A stretch of 64,000 nt of DNA from Skeletonema tropicum (taxonomy: Eukaryota; Bacillariophyta; Thalassiosirophyceae; Thalassiosirales; Thalassiosiraceae): the NCBI GenBank assembly GCA_037178625.1, contig CM074131.1:4216001-4280000 (forward strand), read 5' to 3'. The notes under the pieces are model-generated. The model did no database searches, was not told the DNA's origin, and saw nothing but the letters and a program-made list of their open reading frames with translations. Position numbers and translations under genes: made by a program. Positions 2,275 to 61,017 of the stretch are shown piece after piece; positions within the stretch are counted from its first letter, which is position 1; every line of letters begins with the position of its first letter.

Positions 2275-2729
2275 GAGAGTTTAGCGGAGGGTGAAAGATT
2301 GCCGTTTCATACTGATGGTAGAGTTTTATCACCTGAGGTGCTTCGAAATTGATTCCAAGATCACTGTATAAATTTAATTATAAGTTGTATCAATGTATTA
2401 TTTCTTAATCTTAACTGGAAACTACCTTTCTTCGTCGATTTGAACCTAGTTCTCACACAGCGAACATACATCTTCCTATGCCATATGGTTAGTGTGATGG
2501 AGCAAAAGTGGAAAGTATTCTTGAATACGAAAGTAATATTACTTCTTCTAATGTTTGAGCGGACAAGTGGGTACTGAGTGGGTAAGTTTATGTCACTAGG
2601 AGCCACAGCAGGTACTTTCATCTTACAAGCATTTTAACTGCACTTCCAAAGCTGCGTAAGCAAACAATCAATTTCACCTAAATATATCTTTAACCCCTTG
2701 AAACTATTATTACTCCCCAACAACTTCCT
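2275..2729. other. Intergenic region between convergent genes, with a dispersed repeat
   Basis: No gene is seen. Positions 2556-2655 are homologous, in opposite orientation, to 41204-41325. From about 2670 the sequence is duplicated at about 555-608. Confidence 0.55.
2556..2655 (-). repeat. Dispersed ~100-bp repeat, copy 1
   Basis: Read on the minus strand it carries, in the same order as 41204-41325, the blocks GCAGTTAAAATGCTTGTAA, GTGGCTCC, GTGACATAAACTTAC and ACTTGTCCGCTCAAAC, with indels between blocks. In both places it lies just downstream of a gene, reading in the same direction as that gene. Confidence 0.6.
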
Positions 2730-9675: not shown

Positions 9676-9976
9676 CTTTTTCGCGAGGGCTTTGCCCGAG
9701 CAGTATTTATTCATTTTGATTGTAATGATAATAACGGTACTAATCGATAGGGCTTTCAAAGAGCTTTCGATTGCTTGTCATATCGTATATATTTATTGGT
9801 CAAATTCTGACGTTACATGTGAAATTCTGGCTCCAGAGCCGGATTGCAAGCCGCCGATCACTTTCTATAGCCCCGTTTCTAACCGATTCGATCTGTGAAT
9901 AGTCGTCCAATCGAGCTCATTACACATCTCATCGATAGAGCTCGATGAGAGCTTTCCAAAACGCCACTGATCGTCT
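9676..9976 (+). repeat. Dispersed ~300-bp repeat, diverged copy
   Basis: Alignable along its length with 22168-22455 and its copies at about 25406-25694 and 28646-28935 in the tandem array. Shared blocks include TTTTCGCGAGG, GTGAAATTCTGGCTC, TCGATAGAGCTCGATGAGAG and CTTTCCAAAACGCCACTGAT. It is clearly more diverged than the array copies are from each other, so it is a dispersed family member and not an array unit. Confidence 0.65.
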
Positions 9977-9987
9977 TCGGTCTAGCT

Positions 9988-10666
9988 CGCAAGTTCAATG
10001 AATTATGGCTCTCAAGATATCCAAGACCCGAAGTTTGCGCTCATGATCAAGGTGGTGAATTTATTGGACCTCAGTTCCAGCGGTTGTTGCACGATGCTGG
10101 TATTGCATCAGCCCCATCGACAGCTCGTAACCCCCAAAGCAATGCGATCATCGAACGCCTGCATCTTACTATGGGAAACTCCATTCGAGCTCAACTTTCC
10201 AATCACAACCCTCGCACCTTGACTGAAGCCGAAGACTTGATGGGAACAATCTTATCTGATACTCTCAGTTCTATCCGTGCAACCCCGTCGCAATCTACTG
10301 GGTATGCCCCAGCAGCACTGGCCTTTGGACGCGATATGATCTTCAACCTTCCAGTTCAATATGATATGAACGAGATCAACCTTCGCCGCCAACGCCGTGT
10401 CGACAAGGATGCCAAACGACTCAACGCCAAGCGGTACAGCTATGTACGATTATCGCGTTGGAGAACAAGTCATGAAGAAGATCTTCGATCCTGCCAAACT
10501 CGATGATCGTTGGAAGGGCCCCTTCACTATCACAAGAATCCATGTCAATGGTAACATCACTATTCAACTCACCCAACATCTACAAGAGCGTCTCAACATC
10601 CGACGCGTCAAGCCCTACAGGCAACCTACACCTCAAGTCTTACAACAAATCGTTGCGCCCTCTTAG
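9988..10666 (+). pseudogene. Ty3-type retrotransposon integrase fragment
   Basis: The frame from about 10000 shows the end of an integrase catalytic core: HDQGGEFIGPQF, then NPQSNAIIER, with 35 residues between the Asp and Glu, as in the DD35E core. It continues to about 10435, then a frame change leads into a second segment with YRVGEQVMKK, RWKGPFTI and a basic end, the usual integrase C-terminal region of Ty3/gypsy elements. The stop at 10664-10666 is followed by a purine-rich tract and an LTR. Everything upstream (gag, protease, reverse transcriptase) is absent, so this is a truncated and frameshifted relic. Confidence 0.75.
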
Positions 10667-10909: not shown

Positions 10910-11804
10910 CGGCAGTCTCAGTCAGTGCAGTGACAGTGACTTCGACTGCCAATCAGATTATTCATCAACAGCGGAGGAAATAATAATATCATCAAAGAAC
11001 AATTATTGCAATAGCAATACGAGTCGACGAAGAGCACGATCTACCATTCGAAAGTGCGAACAAAATCAAACAGCGAATCAAATGAATACGAATAACTTGA
11101 CAACTTCAACTGCGGCTGACGATAACACTAGATCGTCTCGGTCTCGCACAGCTAAAGCTGCAGCTGCATCCTCATGCTCCGCAACAACATATACACCCCC
11201 TCGCCCTCGCCCTCGTCACAACCATCATAGAAGTCGACGACGCCATCGAAGTTGCAGTGCTAGTCGGACTAACCATCATAATCATAGACATGATCATAGT
11301 CCACAAACACAGACTACTAACAATCAGAATATTACAGTATCAGTATGTCCGCCGATGCCGACATCAACACAGATACAGCCATCTGTATCAACGGTAATAT
11401 CAACATCCAATACAAAAAGACGAAGTAGGAGCGCAAATTTAAATTTGATACGGAAGGAGACTTATACTTACTCGAACTTGAACTTCTATTCACCCTATCA
11501 ATATAATCATCCAAAGCATGATTCTAATCATGATATAAGAAGTATTGATCAAAACGAAACGAATGACTGTGATGGAATGTCATTATTATTTGAGCAGCAG
11601 CAGTTGTTATTGCAGCAAAATAAAAGGCCATCATCATCATGTGCATCTGTCCAGACAGGGAAGAAGAATAATCAACAATTATCGTTTGAGGAGCAGCTGC
11701 TTCGTCAGCAGCCACTGTCATTATTTGAGCAGTATCAGCATCAGCATCAGCGACGTCATCATCCACCATCATCATCGAGCAACAACTTTCGTTTGATGAA
11801 GTAG
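10910..11804 (+). pseudogene. Array gene copy 0, 5'-truncated
   Basis: Open frame ending with NNFRLMK-stop as in the other copies. The first in-frame ATG is at 11082, where other copies have GTG. The 240 residues cover the Arg-Pro repeat (shortest here), the His/Arg-rich and Gln-rich regions. Lacking the first third and the promoter, it is unlikely to be a working gene. Confidence 0.6.
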
Positions 11805-12022
11805 GAGCGATCATGATCATTATTTTATACGACAATCCACCATAATAATATTATTTTGAATAAACTATATGACGTTTTGGTCCATACCATAATATCCCTC
11901 CAAGCAATCGTATGAAGGCAATGAGTAGTGATTTAGAAAGCTCTCGTTGCGCTGTATCGATTGGTTGTAGTATCAAGACCGAATATCGATCCTTTGTCAT
12001 TCATCTCAACTAAAGCGACTCC

Positions 12023-12039
12023 TAGAATCCTAATTTGAC
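12023..12039. repeat. Left target-site duplication of the non-LTR element
   Basis: TAGAATCCTAATTTGAC, identical to 21105-21121. The unoccupied site occurs once at 24343-24359 and again ending at 27600 in neighbouring array units. Confidence 0.95.
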
Positions 12040-12134
12040 ACAATCTCAAGCAGGTTGTCTGGAAAAGATATGAAAAAATGACATAAATACCTACGTAGGA
12101 ATTAGTACATCGTCTACAGCGATCGACATGAACC

Positions 12135-13529
12135 ATGGCAGCCGACACCGCTACCAACTGCACCCTGGGAACAGGGTACGACAACACTATAATGTATAAT
12201 AACCATATGAATGGCTCCTTAAAAACGAGACTTACTACGGCAAAAAAGTACGCATCAATTGACACTACACTCACATTGTTTGGGAAGGGCGGCGGCAGGG
12301 CCATGTGGCCGGCCGGTTGCAACATCAAACAGGAATGGTGTTTTGGAGATATCGGAGGAATGAGGGACGGATTACGGGATGGAAGACTCTGCCGGTCAAT
12401 GGACACAACGCAGGGATGGACGACTTTTAATCTTATAGATGGAGAGGAGGGAAACTGGAACAACAATTGGGTTGTGACACAATCGGTTGGGAAACAAGGC
12501 ATGAAGATGAGAAGGGAGGAAGCAGTCCAACAACTTATTACTGCCAACATTCTACTACATCAAACAGGTGCAATCCCAGCTCCCCCACCTAAACCACCTT
12601 GGCCCCCAACTTGGCATGATGAAGAACCTATATCGGAGCAAATTAGCATGGAAGACGCGGCACTTGTACGCCACAAATATAATTGGAGATGTACACAACA
12701 AAGTAGACCCCTTGGCGCTCTTTCGCATAACAACAACTCTTCTGGCTATAGTCCTTTTAGCGTTGTGAATTGGATGACGTCTACAGTCGAAGTTGTGCTA
12801 CAAAATCATAACAACAGTGACAATATTTTGGAAAATTGTTTTGGAGATATCGGAGGAATGAGGGACGGATTAAGGGATGGAAGACTCTGCCGGTCAAAGG
12901 ACACAACGCAGGGATGGACGACTTTTAATTTCATGGATGGAGAGGAGGGAAACTGGAACAACAATCGGGTTGTGACACAATCGGTTGGGAAACAAGGCAT
13001 GAAGATGAGAAGGGAGGAAGCAGTCCAACAACTTATTACTGCCAACAATCTACTACATCAAACAGGTGCAATCCCAGCTCCCCCACCTAAACCACCTTGG
13101 CCCCCACCTTGGCATGATGAAGAACCTATATCGGAGCAACTTAGCATGAAAGACGCGGCACTTGTATGCCACAAATATAACTGGAGATGTACACAACAAA
13201 GTAGACCCTTTGTCGCTCTTTCACATAACAACAACACTTCTGGCTATTGTCCTTTTAGCGTTGTGAATTGGATGACGTCTACAGTCGAAGTTGTGCTACA
13301 AAATCATAACAACAGTGACAATATTTTGGAAAATGGCAATACGTATTGCGGTGAGGATTCGGATGTGTGTAGCATCTACACCAAATTTATTCTACACAAT
13401 CGCGGTAGTGAATCATTCCTTGTTAGATTGGTATCTAATGACTGCGTCGACGTCTCGGTCTCACAAGCCGAGGCAGCTCTCTCCCAGGCCCCTCCATCTG
13501 ATATAGGTGTTGTGGGGCCCATGGTGTAA
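12135..13529 (+). CDS. Retrotransposon ORF1 protein with internal duplication
   Basis: 464 residues from an ATG in ACCATGG context. It belongs to no ORF1 family I recognise: no CCHC knuckle and no clear RRM. Its centre is a direct in-frame duplication of 498 bp, 12339-12836 and 12837-13334, whose products differ at 13 of 166 residues. Each repeat carries GKQGMKMRREEAVQQLITAN, a Pro/Trp-rich stretch (PPPKPPWPP) and a HKYNWRCTQQSRP segment. The TAA at 13527-13529 shares its last A with the ATG of ORF2. ORF1 proteins usually bind the element RNA; that role here is assumed from position only. Confidence 0.75.
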   Translation: MAADTATNCTLGTGYDNTIMYNNHMNGSLKTRLTTAKKYASIDTTLTLFGKGGGRAMWPAGCNIKQEWCFGDIGGMRDGLRDGRLCRSMDTTQGWTTFNLIDGEEGNWNNNWVVTQSVGKQGMKMRREEAVQQLITANILLHQTGAIPAPPPKPPWPPTWHDEEPISEQISMEDAALVRHKYNWRCTQQSRPLGALSHNNNSSGYSPFSVVNWMTSTVEVVLQNHNNSDNILENCFGDIGGMRDGLRDGRLCRSKDTTQGWTTFNFMDGEEGNWNNNRVVTQSVGKQGMKMRREEAVQQLITANNLLHQTGAIPAPPPKPPWPPPWHDEEPISEQLSMKDAALVCHKYNWRCTQQSRPFVALSHNNNTSGYCPFSVVNWMTSTVEVVLQNHNNSDNILENGNTYCGEDSDVCSIYTKFILHNRGSESFLVRLVSNDCVDVSVSQAEAALSQAPPSDIGVVGPMV

Positions 13530-15958
13530 TGGATAATGGGCAGCCTCTACGGTATTTTGCCCGATACCCCGAGGTGAGCCAATCCATTCAAGAGAGGCAA
13601 CGTAAGCAACAACCTCGCCGCAGTACCTCCAATCAGAAGAAATCGGCCCGGCGTGCACAACAGTACCGACTCTCGAATACACGCAACCACGTCAAATTTA
13701 GAGGGAGGTACAGCAGCGAAAAGAATAATACAAGTGATAAGTTAGATGCAGATACGATGAGGCAGCTCATAGCAAATAGGCAGCGTTGGTGCGATGATCC
13801 GTCAGCAAAGGACCTCAATGAACTGCTTGATGATTATAGGCACAAAGAGAGGGAGAAACAAGATAGAACCTCCTCGACGAAAGAACTCCGTCCACTTGGC
13901 CAGACAGTGGAGAATACGATTGTGCCTATTTACGGGAACTTGAGGGTGGAGGAGAAGGGCAGTGATGTAGTTCGAATAATGTCGTTGAATATCAACGGGC
14001 TCAGTCTGTGGAAGCACAACAACCACAAGGTAGATAGACTCAAGCACGTCCTGCGGACGTATGGTGTGGATGTTCTGGGGCTCCAGGAGACCAACACCAA
14101 CTTCCACCATCTAAAATCATCAGTGACGGTAGCCTCGATGCTAAGACATGGAGATGACAGAATCAAATCAGTACATTCTCAGAACACTCGGGAACTTCAG
14201 AACATTGGTAACGTTCAAGCGGGGGGGACAGCAGTTGTGATTAGAGACGAGTTGTCGGGCTTACCCATGACCTGCGGTAAAGATTCCACTGAGCTGGGAA
14301 TGTTCAGCTGGTATAGGACGGAGCCGGTCAATGGCGTGAGAACAGTCTTCTTAAGTGCCTACGCGCCCTGTAAATCAGAAGGGGTTGGTACATACTATCA
14401 ACATATTGAGAGATACATCCAATCGCACCAGCTGAAGACCAACCCCAAGGATCTGTTCCGGAGACACATTGTCGATGCCATCAAACGGTGGCGCAGCAAA
14501 GGAGACAGGGTTGTTCTGATGATGGATGCTAATGAGAATGTGTTGGACGGAGTCCTCAGTAAACGACTTGCAGAGGATGATATCCGCATGAGGGAAGCAG
14601 TGCACCGTATGGTCCCCGGCAGAAGAGGTCCTGCTACACATTTTCGAGGCAACAGCCAAAAGAATGGGGCCATAGACGGTATTTGGATCTCGGATGACGT
14701 TGAACTAACTGGAGCCAGCTACTTACCGTTCGACGGTGATTTGGGAGATCACCGGCCAGTGGTTGTCGACCTACAGATGCGGTCGGTTATTGGCACTTCT
14801 ATCTGTCGTATTGTGCCACCGAAGGCTAGAAAGCTTAACTCCAAGGTGCCGCGGATTAGAGTGAAGTACCTTGCACAATTAAAAAAAGGCTTCACAGATA
14901 GACGCATCCCCCAGAAGCTCAAAGAAGTAAATAGGATAGCCTCATTCCCGCCCTCGGCTGAAGTGGTGTCCAAGATGGAAATCCTGGACAACATGATTGA
15001 AGAGGAGATGCTACACGCAGAGGCGAAATGCAGAGTGATTTACCCGGCGCATTATGAGTTCTCTCCAGCAATACAATCGTGGATGGATAAATGCCACCTC
15101 CTGAAATGGATACTACGACATCACCAAGGAAAAAAGGTCAATTGGGGCAATTTGAGAAGATTCGCCAGGCGCAAAGGAATGGAGGACGTTCTTCGGTACC
15201 CTGTCGATGAAGTGGTTCAGCTGTACAAGGAGACCAAAAAACGCACACGAGAACTCATGGCTGAATCACCTTACCTCAGAAAGCATTTTTTACACGAGAA
15301 GTTGACCGATGCTGTGATAAATGAACGGGTTGATGAAGCCAAGAGGGTGGAGCTGATCCTCAAAGGGGAGGCTCAGAGAAAACAGTGGCAGGGGATTAAA
15401 CGAGCAACAAAGCAGCAAGGAGTGATGAATGTTACAAGAGTGGAAGTTACACAAGCAGACGGGAAAGTGGTCGAGCACGCAACAAAAGAATCGATTGAAG
15501 AGGCACTGAAGTCAGAACTCCGCACAAGGTTTGGAAGGGCTACTTCTGCCCCAGTTTGCCAAGGGGTACTATTCGACCTCCTGGGAGTCTACGCCGACAC
15601 GAATGCAGCGGTAGAAATACTTGAAGGATCCTTCGCCCCTCCCCCAGACACATATCAACGCACAATACTGATACTGGACGAAATAGCAGCCATCTGGAAA
15701 AAGATTGGCGATGGTGAGATTTCCGTTGTCGTTTCACAGGAAGACTACCAATATTACTGGAGGAAAGTGAAAGAAAGAACGTCATCCTCGATATCGGGAC
15801 TGCATTTTGGTCACTATAAGTCGATAGCTTTCGATGACGACCTGTCCAGGCTGCTAGCAAAGAAGTTCTCTCTTATGATCCAAACAGGAACCGGCCCAGA
15901 ACGTTGGGCTCGGGGTCTGTCGGTAATGCTCGAGAAATTGCAGGTGTGGCATTGGTGA
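13529..15958 (+). CDS. Retrotransposon ORF2, part 1: basic N-terminus and APE-type endonuclease
   Basis: 809 residues. After a basic N-terminal 140 residues comes an apurinic-endonuclease-like (EEP) domain at about 147-415: LNINGL, VLGLQETN, LSAYAPC, VVLMMDANENV, AIDGIWISDD and GDHRPVVV supply the catalytic Asn, Glu, Tyr, Asp/Asn and His motifs. This nicks target DNA for target-primed reverse transcription. The frame continues into the start of the reverse transcriptase. It is lost near 15935 where one base is missing in an A-run; the protein continues in another frame. Confidence 0.85.
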   Translation: MDNGQPLRYFARYPEVSQSIQERQRKQQPRRSTSNQKKSARRAQQYRLSNTRNHVKFRGRYSSEKNNTSDKLDADTMRQLIANRQRWCDDPSAKDLNELLDDYRHKEREKQDRTSSTKELRPLGQTVENTIVPIYGNLRVEEKGSDVVRIMSLNINGLSLWKHNNHKVDRLKHVLRTYGVDVLGLQETNTNFHHLKSSVTVASMLRHGDDRIKSVHSQNTRELQNIGNVQAGGTAVVIRDELSGLPMTCGKDSTELGMFSWYRTEPVNGVRTVFLSAYAPCKSEGVGTYYQHIERYIQSHQLKTNPKDLFRRHIVDAIKRWRSKGDRVVLMMDANENVLDGVLSKRLAEDDIRMREAVHRMVPGRRGPATHFRGNSQKNGAIDGIWISDDVELTGASYLPFDGDLGDHRPVVVDLQMRSVIGTSICRIVPPKARKLNSKVPRIRVKYLAQLKKGFTDRRIPQKLKEVNRIASFPPSAEVVSKMEILDNMIEEEMLHAEAKCRVIYPAHYEFSPAIQSWMDKCHLLKWILRHHQGKKVNWGNLRRFARRKGMEDVLRYPVDEVVQLYKETKKRTRELMAESPYLRKHFLHEKLTDAVINERVDEAKRVELILKGEAQRKQWQGIKRATKQQGVMNVTRVEVTQADGKVVEHATKESIEEALKSELRTRFGRATSAPVCQGVLFDLLGVYADTNAAVEILEGSFAPPPDTYQRTILILDEIAAIWKKIGDGEISVVVSQEDYQYYWRKVKERTSSSISGLHFGHYKSIAFDDDLSRLLAKKFSLMIQTGTGPERWARGLSVMLEKLQVWHW

Positions 15959-16490
15959 ATAAATTGAGAGCTATTCTCTTGCTTGAGGCTGACTTCAATT
16001 TCTGTAATAAGTTGATTTTTGGACATCGCATGCTGGACCTCGCCCGAGCAAAGGGTATGGTCCCGGAGGAGATCTACAGTGGGAAGGGACGCACGGCAGA
16101 GGATGCAATCCTGCAACAAGTATTGATGTACGACATTGCCCGAATCACCAAAAGACCCCTCCTGGTGGCACAGGTTGATGCGGCCCAGTGCTACGACCGG
16201 GTTGCTCTTCCTATAGCCAGCCTCACTCTACAGGCGTTTAAAGTGCCCAAATGTGCGGCACTGTCGATGCTCCGCCCCTTGCATAATATGGAGTTTTTCC
16301 TAAGAACTGGTTTTGGCCAATCTTCTTCATATTTTGGTGGGAAAGAGGACGGGAAACACGGTCTCGCTCAAGGGAACGGTGCAGCTCCTCCGACATGGCA
16401 ACAGATCAGCACGGTCATGATTAATACCCACAAAACTAATGGGCATGGAGTGGAAGTGAAGTGTCCAATCTCACATAAAAAATTAATCAG
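15935..16490 (+). CDS. Retrotransposon ORF2, part 2: reverse transcriptase fingers and palm (motifs A and B)
   Basis: Continuation of ORF2 in a second frame. KLRAIxLLEADFNFCNK precedes palm motif A (AQVDAAQCYDRV, with the first catalytic Asp) and motif B (GLAQGNGAAPPTW). The frame is lost again at a run of six A at 16477-16482, just before motif C. The domain order shows that the two breaks lie inside one polyprotein. They may be true lesions or homopolymer errors in the assembly. Confidence 0.8.
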
Positions 16491-19400
16491 GTGGGAATTC
16501 TGTATGTGGATGATACCAATTTGTGGGAAGGTCTTAGAGCTGACGATGACATTATCTCGACAAGTGCTAGAGGGCAAGAGTCAATCTCGGATTGGGCAGG
16601 TGCCTTGGGGGAAACGGGTGGCGCTTTGAAACCAGACAAATGTGGAGTTACAATACACGATCAAACACCCGATGGAAAGGGCGGCTGGTGTTACACGGAT
16701 CAAAAAGCGATGCCCTCAGACGGCGAAGAGGTTGACATGAGTGAACTGGATGACTTGATTTTCCACGTCCCCACTACTGACGGGGGCTCTGCGCAAATAG
16801 ATAGGTTGCCATCGAATAAAGCTGACAACAACTTAGGTCTCTACGCTAGACCGGATGGGAAACCAGACCAACACTTCGAGCAGATGAGAGAAAAAATGAC
16901 AACGTGGACGGCTCAGATTAAGAGCGGGCAAATACCAACTCGTTCGGTGTGGATGAGCTACACCAATCAGCTATGGTCTGGACTCAGGTACGGTCTGGGG
17001 GCCTGTTCGGCGTCAATCCCTGAGCTCAAAAAAGGATTGATGTCAGCAGATTTCTATATGTTAAGCAACCTAGGTGTCAACCGATCAATTACCAAGGAAT
17101 GGAGATACCTGCCGGCCACGTTTGGTGGAATCGGTCTCTACGACTTGACGGTGGAAACTGCGGCTGCTACTTTATCTTCATTCTTGCAACACTATGGAAC
17201 AACTTCAGCCCTAGGGATCACTTTAAGAGCAGTTATGGAACACCTTCAAGTGGAAATAGGGGTACCGGACTGTCCCTTCAACTATGACTTTGAAGTTTGG
17301 GGTCATTTATCAACCAACGCATGGGCGAAAGCCCTATGGGAGAAGATAGACGAACTGGGAATCGTGCTGGATCTGCAATATGATGACATCCCCATCCCGA
17401 GGAGCAAGGATAGGGCTATTATGGACTGCATGGTTGAACTGGGTCTACGAGGGACGGAGCTACAGCGAGTCAATAGAGTGAGGAAAGCTCAGGAGGCAAT
17501 GTTCCTCTCTGACGTGACTACGCCAAATGGACGATATCTAGAGCAATATCTGCTTGACGGGCATTGGAAGGACTCACCTGAAGGGCGCCTTGGTAAACAG
17601 CGGTCAACTCTGGAATTTGGCACGGAATATCCGACGGAAGCAGATTGGAAATTGTGGAAGAGATCCCTGCAACGTTTGACTGATAGCAAATCGTTGTTTC
17701 TTAAGGAGCCACTTGGAGATTGGATCAACCCATCTAAACGGATCTGGCGTCACTTCCTCAACACGGACACACGGACAGTGGAGATACATTCGGATGATAC
17801 GATTTATGAATACGCTCACGACGTGGAATCGAATGACAGAGTGTCGATCATGCAGCCAGTCCGAGTGCTGGATGAGCCCGCTTCTTCAGTGGTACCAACG
17901 ACGATTCTGGAATACGAAGATGGGTCCATCAAACTGCTAGCACAAGGACCGCCACTGGCCAGTCAGCCAGAAGTCGTCGCCCCTACTACATTTCTTGAGC
18001 GTCTCCGCAGTAAAGGGGGGGAATGGATGTGGGATAGTATCAGCTTCTCATCGGATCCCTCGTGGATTGTGGAAGCTATTCAACGAGGTTCATTGTTCTG
18101 TTGTACAGACGGGTCATACATGAAAAAGCTGGCTCCAGAGATCTGCGGTGCGGCTTGGGTTTTTTACTGCGCAGAGTCTCAACAGTGGCTTAAAGGAGAA
18201 TTCACGGAGCACTCTAAATGGGCAAATAGCTATCGAGGAGAACAGCTAGGGATGTTGGCTATCCACCTTATCCTACTGACAATAGAGGAACACTATGGAG
18301 TGCCGTTGTCCAATGCAAACATCTTTTGTGACAACAAAGGAACTATTCTCACGTTTTCCAGAAAATACGATCGTGTCCCAGGATCGGCGAAGAACAACGA
18401 CATTCTCCGGGTCCTGCGGAAAATCCAAAGTGTCTCGGCTCTTGCGCACAAGCTGTCTCATGTGAAAGCACACCAGGACGACAGCTTGGGCTATGCTTGC
18501 CTGGCTCTGGAAGCTAGACTGAACGTAGACTGCGATTTCAGGGCAAAAGCAGCCATAAAGAGAGCAATTGAAAATTTCTCCTCTCTCCCGGTCACGCTGA
18601 GCTTACCGCTAGAAGCAGCGGTTGTTATCATCGATGGAATCAAACAGACTGCAGACTTAGCAAAGGACCTACGGTATCACGTAGGGAAGGTGAAAGCACG
18701 ACAGTTCTATGCCGATGAACAACTCCTACACCCTGATATATTCGACTCTGTTGCTTGGGAACCATTGCGCCTGCTTCTCGACCGCAGGCCTAAGATGTTC
18801 AATCTGTGGTATGCGAAACAATGCTCCGGGTATTGTGGAACTGGTCAAATGATAACTAGATATGACAAAAATGCCTCCGATAAATGTCCGAACTGCGGTT
18901 GCTTTGAAACAGCGGATCACCTGAACCGCTGTAAGAGTAGAATTAGGAGGGGGCTATTGCTTGACAGTATCAACGATCTACAAGAGTGGATGGAGGGACA
19001 TTGCACGCATACGTGCATACAGAAGTGGCTACCCCTTTTTATCTCTCTTCAGGGCAGCACTCTATTCGTGGACATGGTGCATAGTCAGGGATGGAGGATG
19101 TCTCAACAGATGCGTAGAGTGGGTAATAGCTTAGATAGGATTGGATGGAGAAACGTGATGGAGGGGAAAGTATCCAAGGAGTTTCTCCAGATGCAGAAGG
19201 AGCATCTCCTAAAGAACCATTCGTTTCTGACCATCGACAGTTGGACAAGCGGCTTCCTGGACAAGCTACTCTCGCTCACGCATACACAGTGGATCTGTAG
19301 GAATCTCACGAAACATCATCGAACGCAAGGAACCAAAGCACTTGCATCAAGAGAAGAGATTTTGAAAGAGATCGAACATCAGCTTAATCTTGGATCCGAT

Positions 19401-20603
19401 GGGCTCTCAGCTGAAGCACGATGTCTCCTTGAAATTCCGACGGACGAGCTCTATGGGAAACCGACCTCTGAACTACAATACTGGTTGAACGCAGCGGTAG
19501 CAAGCAGGCAAGCTGCGGGGGATGAATCAGGCGGGCTTTTAGAGCCTCCTTCTGGGCAAGTCACGACTGGTGCCAAGCAACGAGAAGATCGCAAATCAAA
19601 GCCACAGGGTACTTCAAAGACTGCCGCACCTGCGCGCAAACCAAAAGCACTCGCTCCCATCTTTCTCCCGAAAAAAGCAAGGCGTCCAGCCCAGCCGAGC
19701 GCCCTACCTACCCAGCCTCCTACAACTCTACCACCGGCTGTGAGTCCACAACAACAGGACCGCATTGGGCTTCTGCAAAGGAACTCGGATGAAGACTTAC
19801 ACCGCTGTCAAGTTGGAGCCCTTTTGCGGGACGTGCCAGCTAATTTTCAGTTATGCCTCCAAGGAGGGGACAAGGTTCGGCGTGATGCAATGCGGTCTTT
19901 GCGACCCCCTCAGTGGCTCAATGATGAAGTTATCAATGGCTATCTCCTAAGAGTCCTCCTCCCAAAGGTGAATCGGCAACATGTCTACATCTTCAACTCA
20001 TTCTTCATGTCAACCCTCCTACGTACGGGGGCTGACGGCAGGTCTGCTCCGTCCTACAACTTTGACGGCGTTAAACGCTGGGGAAATCGTTTAAGGAGGA
20101 AGAATAAGATTTTGGGAGTGAAAGAGATCTTCGTGCCGATCAACCACTCTAGAAGTCACTGGCTATTACTCAGGGCGAATACAGAAACAAAGGTTATTAC
20201 CCTGTGGGATTCCCAAGGTAGGAAGCCGGGCAATCAATTGTATCTGACTACAATGTTAAGGTATTTGGGGGACAAATACAGTGAACTTCACGGGGTACCG
20301 AGTGACGATTGGAAAGCAGAGTGGTCACTAGTAGATGCCTCCAACAATTCTCCGAAACAAACCAATGGACACGACTGTGGATTGTTTGTCCTCGCTAATG
20401 CGACTATGCTGGCTCAGCAGATCCCTCTGTCCCCTTCCTCGTACAATGAGGGAGATTTCCAGCTGTTAGACACCCGAAGTAGGGTGGCGATGCTGTTGTG
20501 GCTAGCGAGTACCAACAGGCCTGTACCACCTGCAGTACGGGCAGTCCAATCGAGGCGGCGTCAACGCCAAACTCAGAGCAATGAGAGGAGCCGAAATGGC
20601 TAA
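16482..20603 (+). CDS. Retrotransposon ORF2, part 3: RT motif C, RNase H, zinc knuckle, Ulp1 protease
   Basis: About 1370 residues in the third frame (residues counted from 16491). It opens with reverse-transcriptase motif C (GILYVDDTNLW). RNase H lies at about 535-690: CTDGSY, RGEQLG, FCDNKG and HVKAHQDD give the acidic catalytic residues. A CCHC-like knuckle follows at about 798-813 (CPNCGCFETADHLNRC). A Pro-rich linker leads to a Ulp1/C48 cysteine peptidase at about 1138-1340: WLNDEVING, then HSRSHWLLL (His), LWDSQG (Asp) and TNGHDCGLFVL (Gln-region and Cys). Such peptidases cleave SUMO-like proteins. The frame stops at TAA 20601-20603, with an open basic tail beyond. Confidence 0.85.
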   Translation: MNQVGILYVDDTNLWEGLRADDDIISTSARGQESISDWAGALGETGGALKPDKCGVTIHDQTPDGKGGWCYTDQKAMPSDGEEVDMSELDDLIFHVPTTDGGSAQIDRLPSNKADNNLGLYARPDGKPDQHFEQMREKMTTWTAQIKSGQIPTRSVWMSYTNQLWSGLRYGLGACSASIPELKKGLMSADFYMLSNLGVNRSITKEWRYLPATFGGIGLYDLTVETAAATLSSFLQHYGTTSALGITLRAVMEHLQVEIGVPDCPFNYDFEVWGHLSTNAWAKALWEKIDELGIVLDLQYDDIPIPRSKDRAIMDCMVELGLRGTELQRVNRVRKAQEAMFLSDVTTPNGRYLEQYLLDGHWKDSPEGRLGKQRSTLEFGTEYPTEADWKLWKRSLQRLTDSKSLFLKEPLGDWINPSKRIWRHFLNTDTRTVEIHSDDTIYEYAHDVESNDRVSIMQPVRVLDEPASSVVPTTILEYEDGSIKLLAQGPPLASQPEVVAPTTFLERLRSKGGEWMWDSISFSSDPSWIVEAIQRGSLFCCTDGSYMKKLAPEICGAAWVFYCAESQQWLKGEFTEHSKWANSYRGEQLGMLAIHLILLTIEEHYGVPLSNANIFCDNKGTILTFSRKYDRVPGSAKNNDILRVLRKIQSVSALAHKLSHVKAHQDDSLGYACLALEARLNVDCDFRAKAAIKRAIENFSSLPVTLSLPLEAAVVIIDGIKQTADLAKDLRYHVGKVKARQFYADEQLLHPDIFDSVAWEPLRLLLDRRPKMFNLWYAKQCSGYCGTGQMITRYDKNASDKCPNCGCFETADHLNRCKSRIRRGLLLDSINDLQEWMEGHCTHTCIQKWLPLFISLQGSTLFVDMVHSQGWRMSQQMRRVGNSLDRIGWRNVMEGKVSKEFLQMQKEHLLKNHSFLTIDSWTSGFLDKLLSLTHTQWICRNLTKHHRTQGTKALASREEILKEIEHQLNLGSDGLSAEARCLLEIPTDELYGKPTSELQYWLNAAVASRQAAGDESGGLLEPPSGQVTTGAKQREDRKSKPQGTSKTAAPARKPKALAPIFLPKKARRPAQPSALPTQPPTTLPPAVSPQQQDRIGLLQRNSDEDLHRCQVGALLRDVPANFQLCLQGGDKVRRDAMRSLRPPQWLNDEVINGYLLRVLLPKVNRQHVYIFNSFFMSTLLRTGADGRSAPSYNFDGVKRWGNRLRRKNKILGVKEIFVPINHSRSHWLLLRANTETKVITLWDSQGRKPGNQLYLTTMLRYLGDKYSELHGVPSDDWKAEWSLVDASNNSPKQTNGHDCGLFVLANATMLAQQIPLSPSSYNEGDFQLLDTRSRVAMLLWLASTNRPVPPAVRAVQSRRRQRQTQSNERSRNG

Positions 20604-20894
20604 TCTAAGATCAAACCTCTTCCAGCAAAGAAAGCTTCTGCCGCAGTCAAGCACTCCAAAGGCAAGGAGCGCGCAAAGCGACGTCGCAACAACAAGCGAA
20701 TTATCCCGGGAGGTCCCAAAACTCGGGGGAAAATCTTGGTCACAGAACCCACGCCATTGCAACAGACACATTCACTATTGAACAAGAAACGCAAAGCAGA
20801 GTCCGTAGTTTTTGGGGAGGCCACATTGTTAGCTACCACTCAACGCCATGCTCCGCCGAAGAGGAAGAAACGGAAACAGCACCACCCTGACTGA
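20604..20894 (+). other. Open basic tail of ORF2 beyond an in-frame TAA
   Basis: In the same frame as part 3, 96 further codons run to TGA at 20892-20894. They are very rich in Lys and Arg (KERAKRRRNNKR, PPKRKKRKQHH), unlike a random 3' untranslated region. This suggests that ORF2 once ended here and that the TAA is a mutation or a read-through site. Confidence 0.5.
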
Positions 20895-21104
20895 AAGAAT
20901 TGAGTCCCAACTATGTGTCGCAGGAGCACTCTCACCTGGTTACAGACGCTTCGGCGTTTAAGAGGAGTCCTTGACTCCTACGGGAAGTTTCCCGTCTTGC
21001 TGTCTGGAAAGCCATTCGGCAATAGAAAAGACCGTACAGTTGTACCGAAGCAGGTCCCTTTTAGTATCATAGATATCTAATCTGATTAACTTTGTATTTA
21101 TTTA
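20895..21104 (+). other. 3' untranslated end of the non-LTR element
   Basis: No coding signal. The end, ...GATTAACTTTGTATTTATTTA, directly abuts the right target-site duplication; there is no A-tail and no simple repeat longer than (TTTA). Confidence 0.6.
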
Positions 21105-21121
21105 TAGAATCCTAATTTGAC
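21105..21121. repeat. Right target-site duplication of the non-LTR element
   Basis: Identical to 12023-12039 over 17 bases; the flanking bases differ on the element side, which fixes the length. Confidence 0.95.
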
Positions 21122-21440
21122 GCCCCAAATCGAAATCGGCTTCCAAACTCCAGATGTTGACGAATGTAGTAGTAAATCGACACATTGACCTCCAGTATTG
21201 CCATTATTACCATCATTTTCACCAATTTCGACAATAACAACAGCTCCTTCGCCTGACGGCTCCCTCGCTTCAACATCAGTCCCACTAATGATATTATCAT
21301 CGTCGTCAACTTCGATCAGCTCTTGCGCCTCCGGCTCACTCGCTCTTGTCATATTATTGTGTTATCATCATTGGCGATGGTGCTTTCATTATTCTCCTCT
21401 TCCATTGGCTCATCTCCCTTCGGTCGGCTCGCCACAACAT

Positions 21441-21522
21441 AACAACAACATCACTCCACCGCCGCCAGCTCACTCGACTTATAATTTATAATGATCGGCG
21501 GCGGTGGAGTGTTGTTGTTGTT
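21441..21522. repeat. 26-bp inverted repeat with one mismatch (array spacer)
   Basis: Arms 21441-21466 and 21497-21522 pair at 25 of 26 positions around a 30-base AT-rich loop. Present in the other units at 24679-24760 and 27920-28001. Confidence 0.85.
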
Positions 21523-21855
21523 TTGTCGTCACACAACAATCACACTCCTTCGCCTTCGGCTCACTCCACCAGGAGTTGCGGCGGTGGGGGCAGTGGTAGT
21601 TGTCATTATCCAAACTTCTTCTCCATTGTTGGCTGGCTCACCTCCCTTCGGTCGGCTCGCCTACTTCTACTTCTTCTCCACATCCACCGCCGCCGATGAT
21701 GACAAGAAGAACAACAACAAGAACCGAGTGAGCCGCAAGGCGAGGGAGCAGGAGAAGAAGGAGTTGTAATGAAGTAGTATTGTGGCGGTGGTGGAGTTAT
21801 GATGAGGAGGAGTGTTTGTATTGTTTGGAGTATTGATATTATTGTTAGTTGTTGT

Positions 21856-21900
21856 GGCGGTGGTGGATGATGTAATACAATGCTGACATCCACCACCGCC
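21856..21900. repeat. 14-bp perfect inverted repeat (array spacer)
   Basis: GGCGGTGGTGGATG (21856-21869) pairs with 21887-21900. Further GGCGGTGG or CCACCGCC words occur through the spacer. Copies at about 25094-25138 and 28335-28379. Confidence 0.85.
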
Positions 21901-22167
21901 GATGATGATGAGGCTGGTATCGTTCAATGTTGCGGCGGTGGTGGATTCATTATTGGATGGAATGAAGGGTAGTTTGAATTTGTGCCCAGCGCAGCCGAGG
22001 CAAGTTGATGGACTCCAATGTAATAAAGGAAGTGTATTGTGCGAGGGTGAGCGGTAGCGAAGCCGAGCTGTGATTAGTACTTGGATCTTGCATCATTAAA
22101 GTGGTCGCTTTTTGAGATGATTTTCGGCAATCAACCCATCATAGACGGCACTGTATTAAAAAGTCAA

Positions 22168-22455
22168 TTTTTCGCGAGGCCCTCGGCCGAGCAGTGTTTA
22201 TTGTTGCGTTAATAGTGGTACCGATCGATATTGTAGAGCTTGAAGAAAGCTTTTGATCAGTTGTTAATTTGTATTTTGGTCAAAATTTGAATTCGGATGT
22301 GAAATTCTGGCTCTGGATCCGAATTTGAAGCTGCTGGGCGGAAACTAACCCCGTCTTTGACCGGATCGATTCTTAAATTTGGCTCCAATCGGGCTCATTA
22401 TACGCCTAATCGATAGAGCTCGATGAGAGCTTTCCAAAACGCCACTGATCGTCTT
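22168..22455 (+). repeat. Dispersed ~300-bp repeat inside the array spacer
   Basis: Homologous to the diverged copy at 9676-9976. It includes a short hairpin (GGCC-CTC-GGCC) which in the other copy is GGGC-TTT-GCCC. Confidence 0.6.
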
Positions 22456-22947
22456 GATTGGGCGTCTAGGAGACAAGATATCAAAAGATACGGCTCCATG
22501 ATCATCGTGCAGTTCGAATCTGCTGCTCTTGCTTGGCTTGAGTTGATGATTTTTTGATTTGCTTGACACACACAGTTTTACCTGATTACAAACTTCTTGG
22601 TACATTGGGAGAAAGATAGTCTAGTTTGTCACCGCTTCACAGATTCTCTTGCTAGTATTTGGACTAAGTTAGGGAAAGACCTTTCGATTATAGATACGAG
22701 GCATTTGAATTTGGTTCACGGATCTGTCCGTGAACGAAGCGTGGCGTGAAGCTCACAGCTCAACTCATTCATTCAGCAGCAGAGCACGAGCACGAGCCGT
22801 TCAGCAACACGTTGAGCTTGCATGCTCTAGTCTGTCAAAGCACTACATATTCATATCTAACCGAGGCAGCAGCGGCAGCGGTGCCATGAATTAACGAGAC
22901 GCTATATTATATTCGATATCGTATCAGTAAAGTAGCTCTATCTTAGA

Positions 22948-24124
22948 ATGGCCCCTCGACTAATCGCCTCAGCTACAGCCGCAGCATCATGGGTGCATCG
23001 TCATCGTCGTACATCGCGATCCTCCTCTCGAAGTGAAAGTCGATCGTTACGTCTCCGTAATACTACTACTACTAGGACTACCAACAATGCTAACAATGCT
23101 AACAATGCTGATGATAGAGGAGCTCTAGGTCGACAATCATATTCAGAGGATATTCATCATCTCAGCGATGGAAGTGAAAGTGGAAGTGGCGGCAGTCTCA
23201 GTCAGTGCAGTGACAGTGACTTCGACTGCCAATCAGATTATTCATCAACAGCGGAGGAAATAATAATATCATCAAAGAACAATTATTGCAATAGCAATAC
23301 GAGTCGACGAAGAGCACGATCTACCATTCGAAAGTGCGAACAAAATCAAACAGCGAATCAAGTGAATACGAATAACTTGACAACTTCAACTGCGGCTGAC
23401 GATAACACTAGATCGTCTCGGTCTCGCACAGCTAAGCTGCATCTGCATCCTCATGCTCCGCAACAGCAACATGTACACCCCTCGCCCTCGCCCTCGCCCT
23501 CGCCCTCGCCCTCGTCACAACCATCATAGAAGTCGACGACGCCATCGAAGTTGCAGTGCTAGTCGGACTAACCATCATAATCATAGACATGATCATAGTC
23601 CACAAACACAGACTACTAACAATCAGAATATTACAGTATCAGTATGTCCGCCGATGCCGACATCAACACAGATACAGCCATCTGTATCAACGGTAATATC
23701 AACATCCAATACAAAAAGACGAAGTAGGAGCGCAAATTTAAATTTGATACGGAAGGAGACTTATACTTACTCGAACTTGAACTTCTATTCACCCTATCAA
23801 TATTATAATCATCCAAAGCATGATTCTAATCATGATATAAGAAGTATTGATCAAAACGAAACGAATGAGTGTGATGGAATGTCATTATTATTTGAGCAGC
23901 AGCAGTTGTTATTGCAGCAAAATAAAAGGCCATCATCATCATGTGCATCTGTCCAGATAGAGACAGGGAAGAATCATAATCATCAACAATTATCGTTTGA
24001 GGAGCAGCTGCTTCGTCAGCAGCCACTGTCATCATTCGAGCAGCAGTATCAGCATCAGCATCAGCATCAGCGACGTCATCATCCACCATCATCATCGAGC
24101 AACAACTTTCGTTTGATGAAGTAG
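22948..24124 (+). pseudogene. Array gene copy 1, frameshifted
   Basis: Starts at the same ATG as the intact copy at 26181 but lacks one A in ACAGCTAAAGCTGC at about 23433, so the first frame ends at 23529. The rest reads from about 23453 to 24124 in another frame. It also differs by fewer Asn-Ala repeats, a different Arg-Pro repeat number and an extra His-rich insertion near 23975. Probably not functional. Confidence 0.7.
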
Positions 24125-24359
24125 GAGCGATCATGATCATTATTTTATACGACAATCCACCATAATAATATTATTTTGAATAAACTATATGACGTTTTGG
24201 TCCATACCATAATATCCCTCCAAGCAATCGTATGAAGGCAATGAGTAGTGATTTAGAAAGCTCTCGTTGCGCTGTATCGATTGGTTGTAGTATCAAGACC
24301 GAATATCGATCCTTTGTCATTCATCTCAACTAAAGCGACTCCTAGAATCCTAATTTGAC

Positions 24360-27300
24360 GCCCCAAATCGAAATCGGCTTCCAAACTCCAGATGTTGACG
24401 AATGTAGTAGTAAATCGACACATTGACCTCCAGTATTGCCATTATTACCATCATTTTCACCAATTTCGACAATAACAACAGCTCCTTCGCCTGACGGCTC
24501 CCTCGCTTCAACATCAGTCCCACTAATGATATTATCATCGTCGTCAACTTCGATCAGCTCTTGCGCCTCCGGCTCACTCGCTCTTGTCATATTATTGTGT
24601 TATCATCATTGGCGATGGTGCTTTCATTATTCTCCTCTTCCATTGGCTCATCTCCCTTCGGTCGGCTCGCCACAACATAACAACAACATCACTCCACCGC
24701 CGCCAGCTCACTCGACTTATAATTTATAATGATCGGCGGCGGTGGAGTGTTGTTGTTGTTTTGTCGTCACACAACAATCACACTCCTTCGCCTTCGGCTC
24801 ACTCCACCAGGAGTTGCGGCGGTGGGGGCAGTGGTAGTTGTCATTATCCAAACTTCTTCTCCATTGTTGGCTGGCTCACCTCCCTTCGGTCGGCTCGCCT
24901 ACTTCTACTTCTTCTCCACATCCACCGCCGCCGATGATGACAAGAAGAACAACAACAAGAACCGAGTGAGCCGCAAGGCGAGGGAGCAGGAGAAGAAGGA
25001 GTTGTAATGAAGTAGTATTGTGGCGGTGGTGGAGTTATGATGAGGAGGAGTGTTTGTATTGTTTGGAGTATTGATATTATTGTTAGTTGTTGTGGCGGTG
25101 GTGGATGATGTAATACAATGCTGACATCCACCACCGCCGATGATGATGAGGCTGGTATCGTTCAATGTTGCGGCGGTGGTGGATTCATTATTGGATGGAA
25201 TGAAGGGTAGTTTGAATTTGTGCCCAGCGCAGCCGAGGCAAGTTGATGGACTCCAATGTAATAAAGGAAGTGTATTGTGCGAGGGTGAGCGGTAGCGAAG
25301 CCGAGCTGTGATTAGTACTTGGATCTTGCATCATTAAAGTGGTCGCTTTTTGAGATGATTTTCGGCAATCAACCCATCATAGACGGCACTGTATTAAAAA
25401 GTCAATTTTTCGCGAGGCCCTCGGCCGAGCAGTGTTTATTGTTGCGTTAATAGTGGTACCGATCGATATTGTAGAGCTTGAAGAAAGCTTTTGATCAGTT
25501 GTTAATTTGTATTTTGGTCAAAATTTGAATTCGGATGTGAAATTCTGGCTCTGGATCCGAATTTGAAGCTGCTGGGCGGAAACTAACCCCGTCTTTGACC
25601 GGATCGATTCTTAAATTTGGCTCCAATCGGGCTCATTATACGCCTAATCGATAGAGCTCGATGAGAGCTTTCCAAAACGCCACTGATCGTCTTGATTGGG
25701 CGTCTAGGAGACAAGATATCAAAAGATACGGCTCCATGATCATCGTGCAGTTCGAATCTGCTGCTCTTGCTTGGCTTGAGTTGATGATTTTTTGATTTGC
25801 TGACACACACAGTTTTACCTGATTACAAACTTCTTGGTACATTGGGAGAAAGATAGTCTAGTTTGTCACCGCTTCACAGATTCTCTTGCTAGTATTTGGA
25901 CTAAGTTAGGGAAAGACCTTTCGATTATAGATACGAGGCATTTGAATTTGGTTCACGGATCTGTCCGTGAACGAAGCGTGGCGTGAAGCTCACAGCTCAA
26001 CTCATTCATTCAGCAGCAGAGCACGAGCACGAGCCGTTCAGCAACACGTTGAGCTTGCATGCTCTGTCTGTCAAAGCACTACATATTCATATCTAACCGA
26101 GGCAGCAGCGGCAGCGGTGCCATGAATTAACGAGACGCTATATTATATTCGATATTATCGTAAAGTAGCTCTATCTTAGAATGGCCCCTCGACTAATCGC
26201 CTCAGCTACAGCCGCAGCATCATGGGTGCATCGTCATCGTCGTACATCGCGATCCTCCTCTCGAAGTGAAAGTCGATCGTTACGTCTCCGTAATACTACT
26301 ACTACTAGGACTACCAACAATGCTAACAATGCTAACAATGCTAACAATGCTGATGATAGAGGAGCTCTAGGTCGACAATCATATTCAGAGGATATTCATC
26401 ATCTCAGCGATGGAAGTGAAAGTGGAAGTGGCGGCAGTCTCAGTCAGTGCAGTGACAGTGACTTCGACTGCCAATCAGATTATTCATCAACAGCGGAGGA
26501 AATAATAATATCATCAAAGAACAATTATTGCAATAGCAATACGAGTCGACGAAGAGCACGATCTACCATTCGAAAGTGCGAACAAAATCAAACAGCGAAT
26601 CAAGTGAATACGAATAACTTGACAACTTCAACTGCGGCTGACGATAACACTAGATCGTCTCGGTCTCGCACAGCTAAAGCTGCATCTGCATCCTCATGCT
26701 CCGCAACAACATATACACCCCCTCGCCCTCGCCCTCGCCCTCGCCCTCGCCCTCGCCCTCGTCACAACCATCATAGAAGTCGACGACGCCATCGAAGTTG
26801 CAGTGCTAGTCGGACTAACCATCATAATCATAGACATGATCATAGTCCACAAACACAGACTACTAACAATCAGAATATTACAGTATCAGTATGTCCGCCG
26901 ATGCCGACATCAACACAGATACAGCCATCTGTATCAACGGTAATATCAACATCCAATACAAAAAGACGAAGTAGGAGCGCAAATTTAAATTTGATACGGA
27001 AGGAGACTTATACTTACTCGAACTTGAACTTCTATTCACCCTATCAATATTATAATCATCCAAAGCATGATTCTAATCATGATATAAGAAGTATTGATCA
27101 AAACGAAACGAATGACTGTGATGGAATGTCATTATTATTTGAGCAGCAGCAGTTGTTATTGCAGCAAAATAAAAGGCCATCATCATCATGTGCATCTGTC
27201 CAGATAGAGACAGGGAAGAAGAATAATCAACAATTATCGTTTGAGGAGCAGCTGCTTCGTCAGCAGCCACTGTCATTTGAGCAGCAGTATCAGCATCAGC

Positions 27301-27600
27301 ATCAGCATCAGCGACGTCATCATCCACCATCATCATCGAGCAACAACTTTCGTTTGATGAAGTAGGAGCGATCATGATCATTATTTTATACGACAATCCA
27401 CCATAATAATATTATTTTGAATAAACTATATGACGTTTTGGTCCATACCATAATATCCCTCCAAGCAATCGTATGAAGGCAATGAGTAGTGATTTAGAAA
27501 GCTCTCGTTGCGCTGTATCGATTGGTTGTAGTATCAAGACCGAATATCGATCCTTTGTCATTCATCTCAACTAAAGCGACTCCTAGAATCCTAATTTGAC
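24360..27600 (+). repeat. Array unit 2 (3241 bp)
   Basis: Second complete unit; the only one with an uninterrupted copy of the gene. It contains an unoccupied version of the retrotransposon target at its left border (24343-24359). Confidence 0.9.
26181..27365 (+). CDS. Array gene copy 2, intact low-complexity protein
   Basis: 394 residues, no recognised family. In order: an Arg/Ser-rich N-terminus (HRHRRTSRSSSRSESRS), an (Asn-Asn-Ala) repeat, an acidic Ser-rich part (SDSDFDCQSDYSS), a (Arg-Pro)n run encoded by a CGCCCT microsatellite, a basic His/Arg region, and a Gln-rich C-terminus with the repeated word FEEQLLRQQ. RS-like and Gln-rich composition suggests a nuclear, RNA- or protein-binding, disordered protein, but this is inference. 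Copy number and microsatellite lengths vary between units. Compared with the gene at 29424-32899 it lacks the long C-terminal part, so even the intact copy is a truncated derivative. Confidence 0.55.
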   Translation: MAPRLIASATAAASWVHRHRRTSRSSSRSESRSLRLRNTTTTRTTNNANNANNANNADDRGALGRQSYSEDIHHLSDGSESGSGGSLSQCSDSDFDCQSDYSSTAEEIIISSKNNYCNSNTSRRRARSTIRKCEQNQTANQVNTNNLTTSTAADDNTRSSRSRTAKAASASSCSATTYTPPRPRPRPRPRPRPRHNHHRSRRRHRSCSASRTNHHNHRHDHSPQTQTTNNQNITVSVCPPMPTSTQIQPSVSTVISTSNTKRRSRSANLNLIRKETYTYSNLNFYSPYQYYNHPKHDSNHDIRSIDQNETNDCDGMSLLFEQQQLLLQQNKRPSSSCASVQIETGKKNNQQLSFEEQLLRQQPLSFEQQYQHQHQHQRRHHPPSSSSNNFRLMK

Positions 27601-30509: not shown

Positions 30510-31554
30510 ATACTTCTCTCCCCTCCTCACCAAACACAAGCACAATTATCATCCTTTGAACAGCAACTTTTACAACAAGAACCACCACCTCCCTTTATTC
30601 TACCACAGTCACTTACTTCAAATAATAATCATGTGAATGAGGTACTTCCATCATCGACATTCGAAGAACAGTTATTACATCAACCCGAAATCGACCTCAA
30701 CGGAAGTAGCTTTCGAGGAGCAGCAGGTCCTCATTATCCTAGCTACAATGAACAATCGTCATTTGCAGACGCTACTGCCAATTGTGATGGGAGTAGTGTT
30801 ATTTATTTTCGGAATGATAGTAGTACTGGTAGTAATGAGGGGAATGGGAGGAGGAGGTGTACTAGTTTGCCTCCTCCGTTGGTACGTGATGGAAGTGGTG
30901 GGAGTGGCATATTGTCTGGTGGTGGAGTTACAATTTGTGGAAGTGGTGTTGAGGAAAGTAGTATTAGTGAAAGTAGAGGTGGTGCAAGGATGGTGGGGGA
31001 GGAGGGGTCACCACCACCACCAACATTCACGGTTAGGTGGTGGTCGTCCCAATGTGGGGGGAGAGTCTTCACCATCCTATCCCCCCCCACCACTACCACA
31101 AGGAGTAAATAATGATGCAGCCTCATTCCATCGCAACAATAACAGTCGATCGACGTCCATGCCACCACCACTCGTACGAAAAGCACCCTACAATGCTGCT
31201 TCGTCCGAGAGGATTCCACTCCCTCATCATCCACTATTATTCACTCCACCACAATCATCATCACCTCCTGTACCACCCATGAATTACTATCCTCCCTCAC
31301 TTCTTCATCCACAACAGCAACAACAAACAGAGTTAATAGGAGGAGGAGGAGGAAAAGGCACAATTATAACCCCCCAAGAATATCAAAGGCTCCAACAAGA
31401 ATCTGAACTAGTCACTGCACGAATGCGTGAAATTGAAGAGCGGATACGAGATATTGAAAGTAATCGGAGCAATGGTCAAGGTGGTGGTGGTGATGGTGCT
31501 GCCCCCTCCATTGCTATGGGTGGAGGTGCATTATTGATTGGAGATGAGGAATAG
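29424..31554 (+). pseudogene. Parent gene of the array, 5' and middle part, frames broken
   Basis: The N-terminus equals the array gene, but the frame changes near the CGCCCT microsatellite (about 29940). Downstream of 30509 it continues into unique sequence that keeps the array gene's FEEQLL(R/H)Q word (FEQQLLQQE, FEEQLLHQP), which shows that this is the original gene. Three frames are needed to read 29424-31554: up to about 30173, then to 30559 or 31112, then to 31554. Homopolymer runs of G and C at 30990-31090 could explain some changes, or introns could be present. The protein is Pro/Gly/Gln-rich with a short coiled coil (EYQRLQQESELVTARMREIE). Confidence 0.5.
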
Positions 31555-52634: not shown

Positions 52635-52680
52635 TATTTCTTTCCTGGGTTTCTATTTCCTATCTATTTTCTAACTTTTC

Positions 52681-53252: not shown

Positions 53253-53317
53253 CTACGTTCGATTTCTGTTTCCAGCTCCACGTCTCTAGTGGTGCCTATC
53301 CGTCAATAGTTAGTTTG

Positions 53318-61006: not shown

Positions 61007-61017
61007 CATTTTTCCAA

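Follow-up and report, generated by a model that had tools for sequence, protein, structure and literature searches.

Does the reading frame at 16482..20603 of a 64,000-nucleotide stretch of the Skeletonema tropicum genome, in which a Ulp1-type SUMO protease follows a reverse transcriptase (RT) and an RNase H domain, belong to a single mobile element, and what might a protease do there? The stretch (GenBank assembly GCA_037178625.1, contig CM074131.1, positions 4,216,001 to 4,280,000, forward strand) is referred to as the window. The frame is the 3′ half of open reading frame 2 (ORF2) of a complete retrotransposon without long terminal repeats (non-LTR), and begins within the RT. The element is one of a multicopy non-LTR family of the type with an exonuclease-endonuclease-phosphatase (EEP) endonuclease, here called family A, with many near-identical open copies and an ORF2 that ends in a SENP/Ulp1-type cysteine peptidase. 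The protease keeps its catalytic residues and is under purifying selection.

A protease-bearing retrotransposon family

An initial annotation of the window had placed a Ulp1-type protease in one frame with the RNase H and the RT, a reading now confirmed by the domains, the motifs and the borders of the unit that holds them. In the profile search the domain matches PF02902 with E 2.8e-23 and 83.3 bits against a cut-off of 20.7, and the C48 motifs that had been recognized for the catalytic His (NHSRSHW), Asp (LWDSQG) and Cys (DCG) are completed by the oxyanion Gln in SPKQ. The triad and the Gln are intact in all nine complete element domains, a count from which P0011 and P0014 were excluded, being proteins interrupted within the protease. 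The structure model (predicted local distance difference test, pLDDT, 88.4) has the predicted SENP/Ulp1 fold, and SENP1/2 and Ulp1 rank first both among PDB sequences and by fold. The ratio of nonsynonymous to synonymous polymorphism (pN/pS) over 18 copies (L008 and L014 were dropped from a set of 20 for stops) is 0.10 in the protease (12 synonymous, four nonsynonymous differences) and 1.05 in the linker that precedes it (two and six).

The element is delimited by paired copies of AGAATCCTAATTTGAC and by two empty sites with the same flanks, at 24344-24359 and 27585-27600, where AGAATCCTAATTTGAC is found in a single copy between equal outer flanks in sibling host repeats. Up to 12039 the left flank resembles the host repeat units (96%), which resume in the right flank as an array of units approximately 3.24 kb long that begin at 21105, 24343 and 27584 and are 99% identical. 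No repeat of at least 60 bp that would represent LTRs links the two element ends, and the variable-length target-site duplication, the absence of LTRs and the simple-repeat tail agree with the hallmarks of EEP-type non-LTR elements.

The window copy is itself damaged. Its ORF2 frame breaks at approximately 15.94 kb and approximately 16.48 kb, and a premature stop at 20601-20603 lies, by comparison with the siblings, in the same reading frame as their ORF2, so that it is not a third frame break; the basic tail behind it is open in all seven sibling copies printed. The tails of P0002, P0003, P0012 and P0052 are similar to it by eye. The RVT_1 profile scores under its cut-off of 29.6 bits both on the middle piece of the window copy (E 8.5e-5, 22.8 bits) and on the homologue P0003 (29.3 bits); the (Y/F)xDD box is present as YVDD at 16503-16520. 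The EEP domain also precedes the RT in P0015 and P0052. Type I RNase H is carried by some non-LTR clades only. For the zinc-finger-like motif, the zf-RVT profile gave E 0.012, below cut-off, on the relative P0041.

At least 34 scored matches to the window protein, 95-100% identical to it, were found in the 78.4-Mb genome of the same organism, a number that is a lower bound. The domain recurs in other copies, as the initial annotation required of a true component: 32 of the 34 matches reach the last residue of the query, some of them with stops, and 17 are open and stop-free across 2,462-2,466 codons. The 3′ end and its flank were obtained for 20 matches (L001-L020), the other 14 being unused for ends or pN/pS. 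All 15 own-genome copies with the 5′ end read, the window included, start with ACAATCTCAAGCAGG, and 18 of 19 sibling loci finish after TTTGTATTTAT, beyond which additional TTAT-type units are few or absent (ATTT-type tail), L011 being rearranged. Of the 14 copies for which both ends are available (that of the window and 13 siblings), every one has direct repeats of 11-19 bp at its junctions, part of whose length may be shared with the tail; in 11 they abut the element start and in three they leave one or two extra bases there. This count leaves out L003, L009, L010, L013 and L014, whose 5′ ends were not found in the sequence retrieved for them, and L011. One copy is apparently nested in another, since L003 is flanked by RT sequence of the element. 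Shared ends together with direct repeats are the pattern of target-primed reverse transcription, and on these sequence features the family appears to have been mobile not long ago.

Upstream of ORF2, the ORF1-like frame has neither a Pfam match over cut-off nor an NCBIfam match. It contains a 498-bp in-frame tandem duplication (12339-12836 and 12837-13334), and because the two repeat copies differ in that frame by four synonymous and 13 nonsynonymous changes, its coding is not established and ORF1 is not supported as a constrained protein. Judged from the position of the 5′ end, the 498-bp unit is present one to three times among 15 copies. The repeat resembles a variable leader or promoter repeat, for which the monomers of mouse L1 offer a comparison. 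The TAATG at the ORF junction may be read as a stop-restart signal. Sigma-70/terminator and NCBIfam scans returned no matches.

Features of the family A element in the window (positions from the first nucleotide of the window)
Feature	Position	Strand	Basis
Target-site duplication, left copy (AGAATCCTAATTTGAC)	12024..12039	+	identical to 21106-21121
Full-length non-LTR retrotransposon, family A, 9,066 bp	12040..21105	+	duplication at both borders
ORF1-like open frame	12132..13529	+	open-frame listing
TAATG, ORF1 stop overlapping ORF2 start	13527..13531	+	sequence
ORF2	13529..20894	+	open frames and sibling copies
EEP endonuclease domain	13979..14752	+	PF03372, E 7.4e-9, residues 151-408 of the 13529 frame
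RT, part of fingers and palm, spread over two frames (PF00078 part)	15904..16643	+	RVT_1
RNase H domain (type I)	18054..18626	+	
Cys/His zinc-finger-like motif CPNCGCFETADHLNRC	18885..18932	+	motif position
Linker, residues 1021-1115	19542..19826	+	without measurable constraint
Ulp1/SENP-like C48 peptidase domain	19827..20516	+	PF02902, PDB sequences, structure model, pN/pS
Basic C-terminal ORF2 tail of sibling copies, behind premature stop here	20604..20894	+	sibling frames
3′ untranslated end, short ATTT-type repeat tail	20895..21105	+	shared end of sibling loci
Target-site duplication, right copy	21106..21121	+	same 16 bases as left copy

Elsewhere in the window, the host repeat forms three tandem units of approximately 3.24 kb at 21105-30510, the last one aligned in part, and a partial copy (96%) adjoins the element at 10910-12039. 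An open frame at 9949-10506 has letters resembling the integrase of an LTR retrotransposon, with no Pfam match. An 82-bp tandem array occupies 52677-53255. Dispersed duplications of 92-96% identity pair 56314-58252 with 61010-62839 and 552-1413 with 2662-3540, and frames near them encode a leucine-rich repeat (LRR) protein (55531-56490) and a BTB/TLDc/SAM protein (2733-4607).

Related elements and descent of the protease

Residues 1-1040 were searched against 5.8 billion proteins, and the best 7,991 candidates by shared words were scored, yielding at least 43 relatives (45 with the window protein and P0052). All those with organism names are from diatoms (Skeletonema, Mediolabrus and Cyclotella). 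The order EEP-RT-RNase H-Ulp1, which had been suggested as worth seeking in other diatoms, was indeed met again, in Skeletonema marinoi (QTG54_000898, P0011, interrupted in the protease) and in metagenome proteins; long proteins of this order include P0012 (58 member sequences), P0015 and P0052.

In a tree of the shared body, built without the protease part from 45 rows (the 43 relatives, the window protein and family B, a second element family described below; P0052 is not included because it was found later), all 10 Ulp1-bearing rows fall together in a clade of 14 rows (support 100/100). The remaining four rows of the clade (P0013, P0016, P0020 and P0022) lack Ulp1 and end before its position, and are held to be uninformative because they end early; when they are scored as Ulp1-less, the tree takes five changes instead of one. 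A long-branch warning of the tree program concerned the outgroup rows above all. In the protease tree, the element domains and P0004 form one clade (100/99), apart from two fungal proteins (P0006 and P0010), from P0005 and P0007, and from the likely host genes. Both trees bring together the window protein, P0002, P0003 and family B and leave P0015, P0017 and P0041 outside, and they differ, with weak support, in how P0002, P0003 and family B branch among themselves. Given the fully supported clade and the broad agreement of the two trees, the sequences fit one gain of Ulp1 in the ancestor of the clade, followed by joint descent.

P0004 (an ENA protein of 1036 residues) carries an element-type Ulp1 (47% identical) and the stretch before it, with no RT recognized. 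It is placed inside the element clade, and a clade of the nine element proteases alone is not rejected (p-AU 0.27); P0004 is possibly a captured or a donor gene. P0007 (a JGI protein of 757 residues, outside the element clade) has a C-terminal Ulp1 behind a Cys/His motif that we take to be like that of non-LTR RT tails, and is possibly a second, independent fusion of a retroelement with Ulp1. In P0020 (Mediolabrus comicus ACHAWC_011573) the gene model joins a related EEP-RT part to a C-terminal RING-type PF13920 domain, a precomputed match, and may be an artefact.

In the own genome, 144 matches to PF02902 were recorded, among them families A, B and C and two likely host genes. Family B (L027) shares 62% identity with A across about 710 residues; 12 PF02902 rows with an equal profile range and frames of 2,446-2,483 codons are assigned to it, L027 being the one of these that was read, and two more copies, L023 and L024, were read in shorter frames. 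For A versus B, only pN was used because dS is saturated. Family C is multicopy, with Ulp1 in frames of up to 1,044 codons, and no RT was seen within the 713 residues read of L026, L028, L030 and L031; it is perhaps a DNA transposon. These four loci have a Cys-rich CKC region, and in the tree their protease falls with the likely host Ulp1 genes (L021 and L022). In the latter, the frame or the likeness stops just ahead of the catalytic Cys, likely as at an intron of a host gene. Descent of the element protease from these host genes is not supported, since they group with family C (93/90).

Proposed function of the protease

The protease is probably an active SUMO deconjugase that, on the polypeptide of the endonuclease and the RT, de-SUMOylates proteins at chromatin and favours either expression of the element or target-primed reverse transcription. 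It would travel with the element ribonucleoprotein (RNP) to chromatin, where SUMO could be removed from host repressors on element chromatin, from factors of repair or replication at the target, or from the RNP itself, and the outcome would be better expression or completed target-primed reverse transcription. Deconjugation near the RNP is suggested by the full catalytic set, the fusion to endonuclease and RT, the selection on the domain and the presence in the host of a SUMO-like protein 46% identical to Smt3. By analogy, the protease may provide a counter-silencing step, as the initial annotation had proposed; action on proteins that repair the nick, or on the RNP, is equally possible. In the accessible text of PMC7676866, SUMO depletion in the fly ovary raises R1 about 1000-fold and R2 about 300-fold, and in that of PMC8585004, yeast Ty1 is derepressed when Ubc9, or Siz1 together with Siz2, is lost.

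Several observations weigh against this proposal. In the same accessible text (PMC8585004), Ty1 also rises when yeast Ulp1 is impaired or displaced, a change that its authors attribute to lowered SUMOylation, so that the effect of an extra protease is not simply readable from yeast. The modelled SENP fold alone would be compatible with another ubiquitin-like substrate, and the polymorphism counts for the protease are small. The shared body is complete to its end in 39 of the 45 proteins; 10 of these 39 have Ulp1 and 29 do not, the latter ending 18-116 residues past the body (the other six stop earlier). Moreover, the same genome holds a related Ulp1-less family (L082-L084), with at least 24 scored matches, 16 of the 24 open over 2,019-2,039 codons, and no Ulp1 within 1,470 bases downstream at the three loci read; the domain is not required for such elements. 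Because this family has many open copies beside family A, Ulp1 is an optional accessory module, yet one that is kept in the lineage carrying it.

Other explanations differ in what the protease would act on, if on anything. It might cut the ORF2 polyprotein, or ORF1, at Gly-Gly and free the RT or itself, as the clan CE proteases of DNA viruses do. The proteases of African swine fever virus (ASFV) and poxviruses share the fold (at a lower Z, about 12-13), families A and B, P0002 and P0003 all have a D-x-[S/T]-G-G motif in the stretch that separates the shared body from the protease, and IGG occurs in both ORF1 repeat units. However, the motif is present in only four of the 10 Ulp1-bearing elements (by eye, it was not seen in P0012, P0014, P0015, P0017, P0041 and P0052, and the Gly-Gly of P0017 stands in a different setting), which led to rejection of a conserved autoprocessing site and makes self-processing unlikely; the fold, too, is nearest to SUMO proteases, and SUMO proteases need folded SUMO. 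The evidence leans towards deconjugation and away from self-processing. That the peptidase serves another ubiquitin-like modifier (NEDD8, ubiquitin or Atg8-like), as its fold would allow, is improbable with SENP1/2 and Ulp1 first by both sequence and fold.

SENP domains bind SUMO, and an inactive or weak domain could have been kept as a tether that steers integration to SUMO-rich chromatin; such a tether would not need the four catalytic residues that all nine complete domains keep, and we regard it as quite improbable. The broken state of the window copy and the start of its frame within the RT might have pointed to a chance fusion or to a neighbouring gene outside the element, an explanation refuted, and left with practically no weight, by the position of the domain inside a unit bounded by a target-site duplication, its recurrence in sibling copies and relatives, and the purifying selection on it.

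An extension of the deconjugase proposal, which we regard as doubtful, is an arms race over SUMO, in which the lineage would long ago have captured a SUMO isopeptidase to free the repressors at element loci of SUMO, while SUMO-like genes multiply in the host. If true, it would represent a retrotransposon counter-defence against SUMO silencing that could be compared across Ulp1-bearing and Ulp1-less families in one nucleus. The host expansion in this scenario is an array of SUMO/ubiquitin-like matches on contig C11 (G000): ten PF11976 matches are found in 55 kb, at about 2.162-2.217 Mb, and six matches in this region are 29-39% identical to yeast SUMO, the picture of an expanded SUMO-like gene array.

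Comparison with known systems

Dualen-type elements carry a protease of another kind, OTU. As to Ulp1, the view that it is known from DNA transposons holds, as available excerpts describe Ulp1/C48 peptidases in Ginger1 and Mutator-like elements (PMC2836005) and in CryptonF/CryptonS (PMC3212892), and its presence in a non-LTR element is not new in itself, a Ulp1-like domain being already described in NeSL and Utopia-1_TSP in the accessible text of PMC4640811. No report of a non-LTR element of EEP type that has both RNase H and a Ulp1 at its C-terminus was found in the literature searched, which did not extend to Repbase and most subscription papers and so does not prove absence, and no such fusion is named in the accessible parts of PMC6338049, PMC5348765, PMC5718144, PMC5911963 and PMC7017206.

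NeSL and Utopia-1_TSP, both from nematodes, resemble the diatom element in that a non-LTR RT polyprotein includes a Ulp1-like cysteine protease, and the same excerpt (PMC4640811) places their protease at the N-terminus and a restriction-like endonuclease at the C-terminus. Compared by domain order, the diatom element has instead an N-terminal EEP, RNase H after the RT and Ulp1 C-terminal to both, and it ends in Ulp1 and a basic tail rather than in a restriction-like endonuclease, which sets it outside NeSL/Utopia. The RNase H of oomycete Utopia elements lies upstream of the RT according to that excerpt (PMC4640811), and that of the diatom element downstream. The C48 peptidase of Ginger1 is C-terminal, as in the diatom element (PMC2836005, excerpt); however, Ginger1, Mutator-like elements and CryptonF/CryptonS are described in these excerpts as having DNA transposases or tyrosine recombinases and no RT. 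Unlike cellular Ulp1, SENP1 and SENP2, the element protease is fused to retrotransposon enzymes, and its clade is distinct from that of the likely host Ulp1 genes.

The role of the Ulp1-like proteases reported in several transposon classes is, in the source texts at hand, only proposed. Here, selection acts on a SENP-type protease that is joined to a retrotransposition enzyme, and the genome contains, besides family A, both another family that bears the protease and a related one that lacks it. The Ulp1-less relatives (for example P0018, P0019 and P0039, and L082-L084), mostly 30-36% identical to the window protein (P0049 and P0050, 21-22%), have the same EEP-RT-RNase H-zinc finger body and lack the protease. 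With many open copies each, the Ulp1-bearing and Ulp1-less families constitute a natural control for asking whether mobile elements carry SUMO proteases for escape from SUMO-dependent repression or for a step of integration.
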